DNA from: Lachnospiraceae bacterium | GTDB lineage: Bacteria > Bacillota_A > Clostridia > Lachnospirales > Lachnospiraceae | Length of the DNA stretch: 23,972 nt | Direction of reading: 5' to 3' | Assembly: GCA_017435025.1 (NCBI GenBank) | Contig: JAFSFU010000252.1 | Location: 1-23,972 of the forward strand | Shown here: positions 11,462 to 19,695 of the stretch, one piece after another | Numbering within the stretch: the stretch's first letter is position 1 | Layout of the letters: every line of letters starts with the position of its first letter | Made by a program: the position numbers and the translations under genes | Notes under the pieces: generated by a model | What the model saw: only the letters and a program-made list of their open reading frames with translations | Databases searched by the model: none | What the model was told of the DNA's origin: nothing

Positions 11462-11695
11462 CTAATTTTCGTAAAGCTCATAATGTTTCAGGCTGCGCAG
11501 GAGAAACTGATAGCGCAGCTGTGCCGCGTTCAGTTCATAAATGTAACAGTCGATCAGCGTTGGGTCGATAACATGCTCAAACTGGTTTTGTGCAGAAGAA
11601 ATCGCCAGCCGACTGGCCTCAATCTGGCGTCTCAGTTCGCTTATGTCCCGGTCCTGTTTTGCCTGTTCCGGGGATCTTTTCTTTATAAACAGCAT
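11462..11695 (-). CDS. YaaL-like DUF2508 family protein
   Basis: 77 aa, soluble and mostly helical. The HVIDPTLIDCYIYELNAAQ stretch (about residues 42-60), followed by RYQFLLRSLK, matches the DUF2508/YaaL family of Firmicutes, whose function is not known. In Bacillus, yaaL lies near recR and bofA; neither is present here, so the gene is out of its usual setting. The ATG at 11695 follows AGGAGG by 9 bases and is preferred over an in-frame start at 11743. No terminator is seen between it and the two-component promoter, so some readthrough is possible. Confidence 0.7.
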   Translation of the reverse strand: MLFIKKRSPEQAKQDRDISELRRQIEASRLAISSAQNQFEHVIDPTLIDCYIYELNAAQLRYQFLLRSLKHYELYEN

Positions 11696-11834
11696 GAGGG
11701 AATTCCTCCTTTTTTCTATCAGTATTACCATGACAAACCACAATATTCATTTTTAACAAAAATTGAAAAAGCTGTAAAAAAACATTTTGGTAAATATGTT
11801 GAAAAAAGGGGGTATCGATTTTACACATCGGAAA

Positions 11835-11863
11835 TTGACTTTTATCCTGGTTTCGTAGATAAT
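11835..11863 (+). promoter_or_regulatory. Promoter of the Tad operon
   Basis: TTGACT (11835-11840), a 17-base spacer and GATAAT (11858-11863) form a strong sigma-A type promoter. Transcription would begin near 11870, giving a leader of about 120 bases before the first Tad gene. Confidence 0.7.
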
Positions 11864-11869
11864 AGGAGC

Positions 11870-11988
11870 ACATTCAGAAATGAGTTCTTCATTTCAAAAA
11901 GACATTTAAAACCGGCAAATTCGCCGGGCTCGAATCGAGCAAAATATCCATTGTTTTGAATTATGGACAATATGAGGAGGTACTGTGT
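11870..11988 (+). promoter_or_regulatory. Structured 5' leader of the Tad operon
   Basis: Three perfect hairpins stand in a row: GAAATGA/TCATTTC (11877-11895, 7 bp), CCGGC/GCCGG (11912-11927, 5 bp) and, directly abutting, GCTCG/CGAGC (11928-11940, 5 bp). A strong GAGGAGGT ribosome binding site follows near 11974-11981. There is no T-tract, so it is not a simple terminator. It does not match the c-di-GMP riboswitch consensus as I recall it. A riboswitch or protein-binding leader is possible but unproven. Confidence 0.45.
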
Positions 11989-12396
11989 ATGGCAGGTCTG
12001 TTTTTTGTACTCGCTTGTGCTGCTGTAACGGATTGAAAATACGGGAAGATTCGAAATTGGCAGATTGTTCTGGGGATGTTATGCGGACTGATCGTTTCTT
12101 CAAATGGCTTGACAGGCGGGATTTCGGAATTCGTTCTGTTGGTGATCGGTACATGTTCTGTGTTATATCCATTCTTTTTGTGCAGACTGCTGGGGGCGGG
12201 AGATATTAAACTGCTCGCTGTTTGTATGGGGGTTTTGGGGGCATATGGTGGACTTCGCATGATCTTTTGTGGATTTCTCTTGGCGCTGATCCACGGAGTG
12301 TGGAAATCTTTGCGCACGGGATCCTTTCGGGGGCAATCGGTGCATCTGGCGATCTATCTGTTTGCAGGCTATGCAGTATATCTGATTGGGAGGTGA
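11989..12396 (+). pseudogene. tadV: Prepilin peptidase (A24, TadV/CpaA-like) interrupted by an in-frame TGA
   Basis: 136 codons encode a small multi-membrane-segment A24 peptidase, which would remove the leader of Flp pilin and pseudopilins. The first catalytic Asp is residue 15 (AAVTD) and the second is Asp72 in GAGDIK, the GxGD motif. Codon 16 (12034-12036) is TGA. The following KYGKIRNW fits the family pattern D-x-K-x-x-x-I-x-N, and the second A24 gene in this operon has Trp at this place (MDWKEKE), so a one-base TGG to TGA change is the simplest account. The frame then stays open for 119 codons to a stop that overlaps cpaE signals. The ATG has a strong GAGGAGGT site. Restart at ATG 12076 would lose Asp15. 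Readthrough cannot be excluded. Confidence 0.75.
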
Positions 12397-12401
12397 AGAT
12401 A

Positions 12402-13421
12402 TTGAAAAAAATTATGGCGGTATACGATGAGGATCCATTGTATGCGGAACGATTATCGGATTATGTGAATCGGAAAGAAAAGGGAATCTTTGAAGCACAG
12501 GCGTTTACGTCAAAGAGCCGGTTGGAGGAATTTGCCAGGAAACATGAGATTGATGTGCTGCTGGCAGGGGAATCAGCATTTGGTGAGGATATGGAATGCA
12601 TCGGTTCTGCGCAAACCATTTATCTGACGGAGGATCAGGGACGCCAGTTCGACGGTGAGGTGGCGGAGATTTATAAGTACCAGTCAGGAGATGACATCAT
12701 TCGGGAGATTATGGCGGTGTATTGCGAGGTTCCGGGTGCTGGTGATGTTTTTCCGGGAGTTCCGGGTAAGAAAAAGCGCATTATCGGGGTTTATTCTCCA
12801 ATCGGCAGATGTGGGAAAACTTCGCTGGCTCTGGCAATCGGACAGCTTTTGGCAAAAGAGGAAAAAGTTTTATTTATTACGCTGGATATGTTTGCAGGTT
12901 TTTCAAGTATATTGGACGAACGCTGGAAGAGAGACATGTCTGATTTGATCTATTACTACAAACAGGGGCGTTTTCATGCACTTCGATTGAATTCTGTGGT
13001 GTATTTATTGGGGGATATGGCATGGATTCCGCCAATCCGGTATCCGGATGATTATAATCAGATCACGTCAGAGGAGATGGCAGAATTTTTGATGAAGATA
13101 CTCTATGAAAGCGATTACAGTACGGTTGTTTTGGATATCGGAAAATATGACAGGCAGGTTCTTCCGGTTCTTAATATCTGTCAGGTGATTTACATGCCGA
13201 TAAAGGAAGATCTTTTTTCGCAGGCAAAAATGAAGGAGTTTGAATCTTATGTGGATCGGTTTGGCGAAGCGGGAACGGCGGATAAATTTCAAAAGATCCA
13301 TATTCCCTATGTGACCGGAACAAGGCGGATGGAGCATTTTCCGCAGGAACTGCTTTGGGGCGATATGGGGGATTTTGTTCGGGGACTTTTGAAAGGACAA
13401 CGTGGATTATGGGAGAATTAA
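12402..13421 (+). CDS. cpaE: CpaE/TadZ-like pilus-assembly ATPase
   Basis: 339 aa, cytoplasmic. The N-terminal part (about 1-107) looks like a receiver-like domain without obvious phosphorylation residues. The C-terminal part is a MinD/ParA-type P-loop ATPase with Walker A SPIGRCGKTS at 132-141. TadZ/CpaE proteins position the Tad machine in the cell. The usual signature Lys of the ParA/MinD P-loop is replaced here by Ile134, so its cycle may differ. The start is most likely TTG at 12402, six bases after GGGAGGTGA; a GTG at 12393 overlapping the previous stop is the alternative. It overlaps cpaF by 13 bases. Second gene of the Tad operon. Confidence 0.8.
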   Translation: MKKIMAVYDEDPLYAERLSDYVNRKEKGIFEAQAFTSKSRLEEFARKHEIDVLLAGESAFGEDMECIGSAQTIYLTEDQGRQFDGEVAEIYKYQSGDDIIREIMAVYCEVPGAGDVFPGVPGKKKRIIGVYSPIGRCGKTSLALAIGQLLAKEEKVLFITLDMFAGFSSILDERWKRDMSDLIYYYKQGRFHALRLNSVVYLLGDMAWIPPIRYPDDYNQITSEEMAEFLMKILYESDYSTVVLDIGKYDRQVLPVLNICQVIYMPIKEDLFSQAKMKEFESYVDRFGEAGTADKFQKIHIPYVTGTRRMEHFPQELLWGDMGDFVRGLLKGQRGLWEN

Positions 13422-19263: not shown

Positions 19264-19695
19264 ATGGGGAAAATGGTATTTTTGGGTGTTTTATTCGCCG
19301 GCGCTTATATGGACTGGAAAGAAAAGGAACTGAACAGCCTGTATCTGATTATCACAGCGGTTCTTGGCGGTGTGTTTGCAGTAAGAAATCTGGCATTGGG
19401 AGAGTCATGGATGGCACTATGTATATCTTGCAGCGTTGGTATCTGGTTGTTAGGAATCAGTTATATGACCCGAGGGGGAGTTGGGGAGGGAGACGGATGG
19501 TTTTTTGTGATTTCGGGACTGTTTTTGCCTTGGAACGAGAATGTATTTCTGTTATGCAGCGGCTGGTGTTTTTGTTTTTTATACAGTTTGGCGGTAGTGG
19601 GGCGCTCTATTGGAAAAAGACGGCTGAATTTATCACGAAGTGTTCCCTTTCTTCCGTTTCTTGTACCTGCCGGAATATTGCTTGTATTCTTTTGA
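19264..19695 (+). CDS. Prepilin peptidase, A24 family (second, intact)
   Basis: 143 aa, about four to five membrane segments. The two catalytic Asp are in GAYMDWKEKELNS (Asp17) and in GEGDGWFF, the GxGD motif (near residue 77). It would cut the leaders of Flp and the TadE-like proteins and can cover the loss of the interrupted peptidase at the operon start. The two share the D-W/x-K start of the first motif but differ elsewhere, so they look like old paralogues, not a recent copy. The ATG at 19264 has GGGGGAG just upstream. Its stop overlaps the TTG start of the next gene as TTGA. Confidence 0.85.
   Translation: MGKMVFLGVLFAGAYMDWKEKELNSLYLIITAVLGGVFAVRNLALGESWMALCISCSVGIWLLGISYMTRGGVGEGDGWFFVISGLFLPWNENVFLLCSGWCFCFLYSLAVVGRSIGKRRLNLSRSVPFLPFLVPAGILLVFF

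Follow-up and report, generated by a model that had tools for sequence, protein, structure and literature searches.

The question raised by this locus is whether a TGA that interrupts an otherwise open prepilin peptidase frame at codon 16 marks a damaged gene or a stop codon that ribosomes are meant to pass. The locus lies in a window (the whole stretch of DNA that was analyzed) of 23,972 nucleotides, which holds a Tad pilus operon with the interrupted peptidase as its first gene. The frame begins at the ATG at 11989, has GAT (Asp) as codon 15 and TGA as codon 16, and then runs through 119 open codons to a terminal TGA at 12394. A strong ribosome-binding site at the start, the stop next to Asp15, and an open frame beyond it that keeps the GxGD motif had been reported in a preliminary description of the sequence, and all were recovered here (Table 1). 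That description had left three explanations side by side, namely a very recent mutation, a sequencing error, and working readthrough.

Table 1. Features discussed in the text, in window coordinates except for the prfB loci of other genomes
Feature	Position	Strand	Basis or occurrence
Promoter-like TTGACT - 17 - GATAAT	11835..11863	+	By eye, alignment of 11 upstream regions
Leader hairpin CCGGC/GCCGG (11912-11927) and second short hairpin (11928-11940)	11912..11940	+	First stem invariant in 8/8 aligned leaders
Ribosome-binding site GAGGAGG	11974..11980	+	Purine-rich sites also 5' of starts in the relatives displayed
Predicted first Tad A24 prepilin peptidase frame, TGA in frame at codon 16	11989..12396	+	Sequence and Pfam
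In-frame TGA, conserved, immediately 3' of the codon for catalytic Asp15	12034..12036	+	11/11 clade genes including the window
Conserved A, UGA-A context	12037..12037	+	A in 11/11 vs 7/42 distinct sense-codon relatives
GAGD motif with second catalytic Asp, codons 69-72	12193..12204	+	Invariant in clade alignment except GSGD in L055
TadZ-like gene, next in operon, start codon TTG (inferred)	12402..13421	+	Pfam TadZ-like_ARD; 3' of the UGA gene in 10/10 relatives
Second A24-like peptidase of the operon, uninterrupted	19264..19695	+	Open in the window and in 5 relatives with loci reaching that far
prfB loci without programmed frameshift	L142, L143, L146, L155-L157, L159-L161		Genomes G001-G007, G071, G269

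With X placed at the TGA, the frame scored 45.0 bits against Pfam Peptidase_A24 (cut-off 26.5), and the part from the next ATG (12076) scored 25.0 bits, which is below that cut-off. Both Asp residues of a Tad-type A24 prepilin peptidase were found, one at codon 15 and one in the GAGD motif, and we take them to be catalytic in this protein. On the domain and the two residues, the gene is predicted to encode an A24 prepilin peptidase of the Tad type, which would cleave prepilins. An AF2 model of the read-through chain had a mean pLDDT of 81.9 and six helices; a fold search of the PDB with this model gave no match at E up to 0.001 (best E 2.0), and a search by peptidase sequence gave nothing at E 0.001. 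No plasmid record matched window positions 11900-12420. Viral contigs gave 38 pattern matches, none of them a relative.

The UGA gene is followed by TadZ and then TadA in 10/10 relatives, and later Tad genes were present in the longer loci. The second peptidase of the window reads MDWKE, with Trp after the Asp, as had been described; it is also open in L002 and L005-L008, where the residue after the Asp is W, L, I, L, and L, respectively. The UGA is present only in the first of the two peptidases. In the genome G001 (a metagenome assembly), two Tad operons were observed, each with its own TGA-bearing first peptidase (L001 and L002). Upstream of the peptidase start, positions 11835-11989 and the corresponding regions of L001-L008, L054, and L055 contain a conserved promoter-like sequence and leader, which could be an undescribed leader element. 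The CCGGC/GCCGG stem gave no covariation, since it was unchanged in the eight aligned leaders; the leaders of L007, L054, and L055 (3/11 upstream regions) differ at this stem. An ORF of 158 codons at 11483-11959 (+) is probably not a gene, with many stops in all three frames in L001 and L002, and its left part resembles, by eye, a small minus-strand gene.

Conservation of the TGA was assessed by scanning 84,980 species genomes with the peptidase, which gave 37 loci. The top eight of these (L001-L008; best-segment identity 38-49%) had TGA at the same codon, and the other 29 all had a sense codon at that position. In a draw of 396 family genomes (completeness filter of 85 requested), a match was found in 243. 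Nine matches in eight genomes had scores of 145-225 bits and a single TGA apiece; the match ranked after them scored 91 bits and was without a stop, and no stop occurred in weaker matches among the matches listed. L054 and L055 came from this draw and also have TGA at that codon. A further two draws, each of 395 genomes and sharing genomes with the first, gave no additional TGA genome. The codon was therefore TGA in 11/11 genes read, comprising that of the window and 10 relatives in 9 genomes (G001 contributing two), of which six are metagenome assemblies and one is an isolate (L008, an Enterocloster hominis strain). An alignment of orthologues had been proposed in the preliminary description as a check; it placed TGA at the same codon, with the frame open on both sides, in all 10 clade relatives, with TAA, TAG, or a sense codon in 0/10, an agreement greater than chance would give, and no stop other than the codon-16 TGA precedes the terminator in any of the 11 genes.

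Full-length relatives were sought at the protein level. A protein search with the frame gave seven matches, all of which begin 3' of the TGA (P0002 being the window's own). A profile search of approximately 5.8 billion proteins, in which only the 7,996 candidates sharing most words were scored, gave 367 proteins at E 1e-10; start placement was judged by the start-to-GxGD distance for the best 120 of the 367, and the 60 longest N-termini were displayed. Among these best 120, 116 begin after the TGA, P0033 was not placed, and three are full length: P0009 (1 sequence), P0010 (106 members), and P0021 (4). Gene callers thus shorten this peptidase family, and the shortened calls recur in big clusters (P0017 with 334 member sequences, P0015 on 168 contigs). 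At the TGA site, all three full-length proteins have Trp, as known from the protein with the codons not seen. A 58-row tree united the 11 TGA genes and the three Trp proteins in one group (100/97), within which the Trp proteins were placed at three points: P0010 paired with L006 (100/78), P0009 grouped with L001-L004 (99/83), and P0021 fell elsewhere with weak support (87/61). Outside the clade, the residues at 48 sense-codon loci (some identical) were L 22, I 7, V 7, F 5, W 4, M 1, T 1, and A 1; Cys was found in 0/48 of these loci and in 0/3 of the full-length clade proteins. A search with residues 1-60 of P0010 matched only itself.

Selection was estimated across the 11 clade genes. The pN/pS ratio was 0.37 over codons 2-15 and 0.39 over codons 17-29, and it reached 0.56 in the remaining part, with pS values of 0.65-0.80, which represent saturated silent sites. 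The parts on either side of the TGA are under purifying selection and behave like a single constrained protein, and the TGA has outlasted the silent sites. A pseudogene was ruled out by ratios below 0.6 in every part and by the lack of a further stop before the terminator. These sequence comparisons show that the TGA at 12034-12036 is a genuine, old, and conserved feature, and not an error or a recent mutation. Because relatives keep the TGA at the same place in a gene with intact sequence before and after it, ribosomes are probably intended to pass this codon.

The nucleotide context of the TGA was also conserved. The base at +4 was A in all 11 genes, in comparison with 7/42 distinct sense-codon relatives with the equivalent A (P=4.2e-7, uncorrected for kinship). 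The codon following the TGA is AAA, AAG, AGA, AGG, or ACA (Lys, Arg, or Thr), so that its first base alone is constant, and the codon preceding it is GAY. Where the following codon encodes Arg, it was AGR in 5/5 clade genes vs 3/16 sense-codon relatives; AGR accounts for 36/94 Arg codons across the 11 clade genes, including those five. Judged from this alignment, the +4 A is constrained, and part of its constancy could reflect inheritance rather than selection. A UGA with A as its next base is reported to be prone to misreading by tRNA-Trp in E. coli (PMC5289835), and the same source cites tRNA-Trp as misreading UGA in B. subtilis.

The decoding machinery was examined for signs of an altered code. 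A prfB gene (encoding RF2) was found above cut-off in 22/23 genomes searched, including 9/9 TGA genomes. In the window, TGA serves as a normal stop, as had been pointed out in the preliminary description: it ends 3/17 of the long ORFs counted and terminates the first peptidase gene itself. The proportion of long ORFs ending in TGA was 25/87 in seven clade loci vs 42/145 in 10 sense-codon loci, with no difference. A genome-wide code with UGA as Trp was ruled out by prfB in all nine TGA genomes together with the 25/87 terminal TGA. A programmed +1 frameshift of the prfB type was also rejected, with the same frame on both sides, GAY before the UGA, A after it, and no CUU UGA C. By sequence pattern, tRNA-Trp was found in 6/9 TGA genomes, with the anticodon CCA in each, and the same pattern found none in G001, G002, and G003. 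The one tRNA-Trp of a TGA genome that was drawn has an anticodon stem of five pairs, the top one G-U, and a tRNA-Trp with a four-pair stem is possible in the remaining TGA genomes. Two UCA-type candidates in TGA genomes (L131 and L132) were not tRNAs, and no tRNA genes were found in the window or in the peptidase loci.

In all nine TGA genomes, prfB runs as a single uninterrupted frame and lacks the site of its autoregulatory frameshift (Table 1), whereas the site CTTTGAC was kept in 11/13 sense-codon genomes with prfB (including G015 and G202). The association is correlational: Fisher P=0.0002 for frameshift loss vs TGA peptidase is uncorrected for kinship, the sense-codon genomes compared were those at hand and no random sample, and two of the 13 (G010 and G018) also lack the frameshift. 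Loss of the prfB frameshift has been linked to high TGA use (PMC12421855), but PMC13245932 reports no such correlation once phylogeny is considered. A causal tie between this loss and the peptidase UGA is speculation, and shared descent would equally explain the pattern. Separately, no prfB was found above cut-off in G237, the fourteenth sense-codon genome (L060 and L080; best 291.8 bits, cut-off 370), perhaps an incomplete genome, in which selA and a selD with in-frame TGA are present.

Taken together, the explanation that we consider likely is that programmed UGA readthrough, probably with Trp, limits the first Tad prepilin peptidase in one clade of Lachnospiraceae. It is supported by the conserved UGA, selection on both sides, the constrained +4 A, Trp in the full-length relatives found, and the presence of RF2 genes. 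From these we infer the readthrough itself, the inserted residue, the low output, and the throttle role. Ribosomes would start at the strong site and reach UGA-A at codon 16, where the majority would probably be released by RF2. A minority would insert an amino acid, most likely Trp via the ordinary tRNA-Trp(CCA), and a small amount of whole enzyme with both catalytic Asp residues would result. The UGA would then act as a translational throttle on the first peptidase, the second peptidase having none. In B. subtilis, readthrough of a UGA reporter was 6% when prfB was normal and rose to 19-54% when it was mutated (cited in PMC7918605), so readthrough of a few percent would require no special machinery. 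More speculatively, loss of RF2 autoregulation may set or modulate the peptidase level.

The main rival to Trp readthrough is a selenoprotein, in which SelB and tRNA-Sec, with the help of an unusual SECIS, would decode the UGA as selenocysteine (Sec), with Sec adjoining the catalytic Asp; we regard it as unlikely. Gene content speaks for it. Above cut-off, selA was present in 66/396 family genomes (including G005, G006, G007, G269, and G071) and, if this draw is the same as the 396-genome draw scanned with the peptidase, in 5/8 TGA genomes vs 61/388 other family genomes (Fisher P=0.004, uncorrected for kinship); it was found in 5/9 of all TGA genomes and in 3/22 of the sense-codon genomes searched. 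Both selB and tRNA-Sec were above cut-off in G005-G007, G001 carries selD with a TGA in frame as well as a SelB-like piece below cut-off at a contig end, and G002 has an FdhA with in-frame TGA. Some bacterial SECIS are also reported to deviate from the consensus model (PMC13188914). However, selA, selB, selD, and tRNA-Sec were all absent above cut-offs from G003 and G004, genomes that may be incomplete, and the lack of Cys at the site in the 48 sense-codon loci and the three full-length clade proteins argues against Sec as well.

The search for a SECIS was performed using a model with the loop 16-37 nt 3' of the UGA and G in its first two positions (PMC13188914), combined with an exact dinucleotide shuffle. 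A hairpin was found in 5/5 selD and fdhA genes used as controls; in four it lay at +17/18 and had a CGGGC loop, and every control hairpin was as good as the best 1-10% of shuffles. Among the 11 peptidases, no fitting hairpin was found in seven, and those of the other four (L002, L003, L007, and L008) were no better than shuffles, of which a fraction of 0.18-0.42 equalled them. The hairpin of L008 (-8.3 kcal/mol at +37) was more stable than 4/5 controls, yet 18% of its shuffles were equal. A narrower hairpin scan with an approximate shuffle gave weak hairpins in L002 and L003 only, equalled by 9-10% of shuffles. Neither scan found a SECIS-type hairpin in the window's own sequence 3' of the TGA, which agrees with the preliminary description. 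The selD genes of G269, G071, and G001 carry a hairpin of the GGAC-CGGGC-GUCC type at +17, and nothing like it was found in the peptidases of the same genomes. Other RNA structure was sought as well: folds of 9/11 regions at the TGA had z-scores of -0.94 to +0.65, RNAalifold with 11 sequences around the TGA predicted three pairs, all 5' of it, with no downstream stimulatory structure found, and an Rfam scan of the window gave nothing above gathering scores.

Slow decay of a tolerated nonsense codon was considered next. The UGA would have been fixed by chance in an ancestor and buffered by the second peptidase, with leakage having no regulatory role. A second peptidase does exist in the operon, and a survey concluded that conserved in-frame stops are in many cases probably transient and without functional recoding (PMC7918605). 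Intact frames in 11/11 genes, pN/pS well below 1, and the constrained +4 base are difficult to reconcile with decay, and the Trp-bearing relatives P0009, P0010, and P0021 lie inside the clade, so a sense codon was reachable; we therefore judge this explanation improbable. Somewhat less probable still is a two-chain arrangement, in which translation stops at the UGA and restarts downstream, and either the short N-terminal product and the shorter protein work together or the shorter protein has another role. Gene callers do pick downstream starts in 116 of the best 120 of the 367 proteins. Against this, the codons just 3' of the TGA, which precede most called starts, are as constrained as the 5' ones (pN/pS 0.39), and the shorter chain would be without the first catalytic Asp and falls below the Pfam cut-off. 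A sequencing error or a very recent mutation confined to the window, suggested by an in-frame stop within an otherwise ordinary frame, has next to no probability given that 10 further genes, from nine genomes and several assemblies, have this codon too and that shortened calls occur in large clusters, and both of these explanations offered in the preliminary description fail on the TGA conserved with an intact frame in other species.

Of the three explanations in that description, working readthrough is thus the one that gained support, from the +4 A, selection on both sides, and Trp in three relatives. Points against Trp readthrough include the enrichment of Sec genes in TGA genomes, the downstream stimulatory structure that was sought around the TGA and not found, and P0009 being a single sequence. 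A stronger version, in which the UGA is a long-lived, selected UGA-to-Trp valve in a cellular gene, the first peptidase is produced solely through readthrough of UGA-A, RF2 autoregulation has been lost, and pilus maturation tracks the balance of RF2 and charged tRNA-Trp, is tentative and on the whole doubtful.

Viruses and animals provide the best-known examples of programmed stop readthrough. The co-occurrence of the peptidase UGA with loss of RF2 autoregulation makes a connection of termination with pilus biogenesis testable in gut bacteria. A further caution is that a conserved UGA in a Sec-decoding genome is not automatically a selenoprotein. Among the open-licence papers listed in literature searches on prepilin peptidases, TadV, and conserved in-frame stops, PMC6311696 and PMC12786226 included, no description of this case was found.

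Several known systems can be compared with this gene. The prfB programmed frameshift (PMC12421855) likewise has an in-frame UGA near the gene start and a bypass that depends on RF2, but the peptidase has no frame change and no CUU UGA C, and the TGA genomes are themselves without the prfB frameshift. Where UGA has been reassigned to Trp (Mycoplasma-type code; four-pair-stem tRNA-Trp, PMC13092985), UGA is read as it probably is here, but the TGA genomes keep RF2 and terminal TGA, the tRNA-Trp found have CCA anticodons, and the one stem drawn has five pairs. Bacterial selenoproteins with bSECIS (PMC13188914) share the conserved in-frame UGA, and Sec genes are present in most TGA genomes; unlike them, the peptidase has no model SECIS, no Cys homologues seen, and Trp in its full-length relatives. 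Leakage at UGA through tRNA-Trp in E. coli and B. subtilis (PMC5289835; PMC7918605) is alike in the UGA, the favourable +4 A, an ordinary tRNA-Trp, and the presence of RF2, but those cases are background leakage or reporters, whereas the peptidase UGA is conserved within a natural gene and has almost all of the enzyme encoded beyond it. The survey of conserved in-frame stops by Belinky et al. 2021 (PMC7918605) is similar in describing a stop shared by orthologues, signs of purifying selection, and a proposed lowering of expression. Most stops in that survey were judged to be short-lived, whereas the peptidase UGA has outlasted silent sites that are now saturated, is followed by a constrained +4 base, and precedes nearly the whole enzyme.
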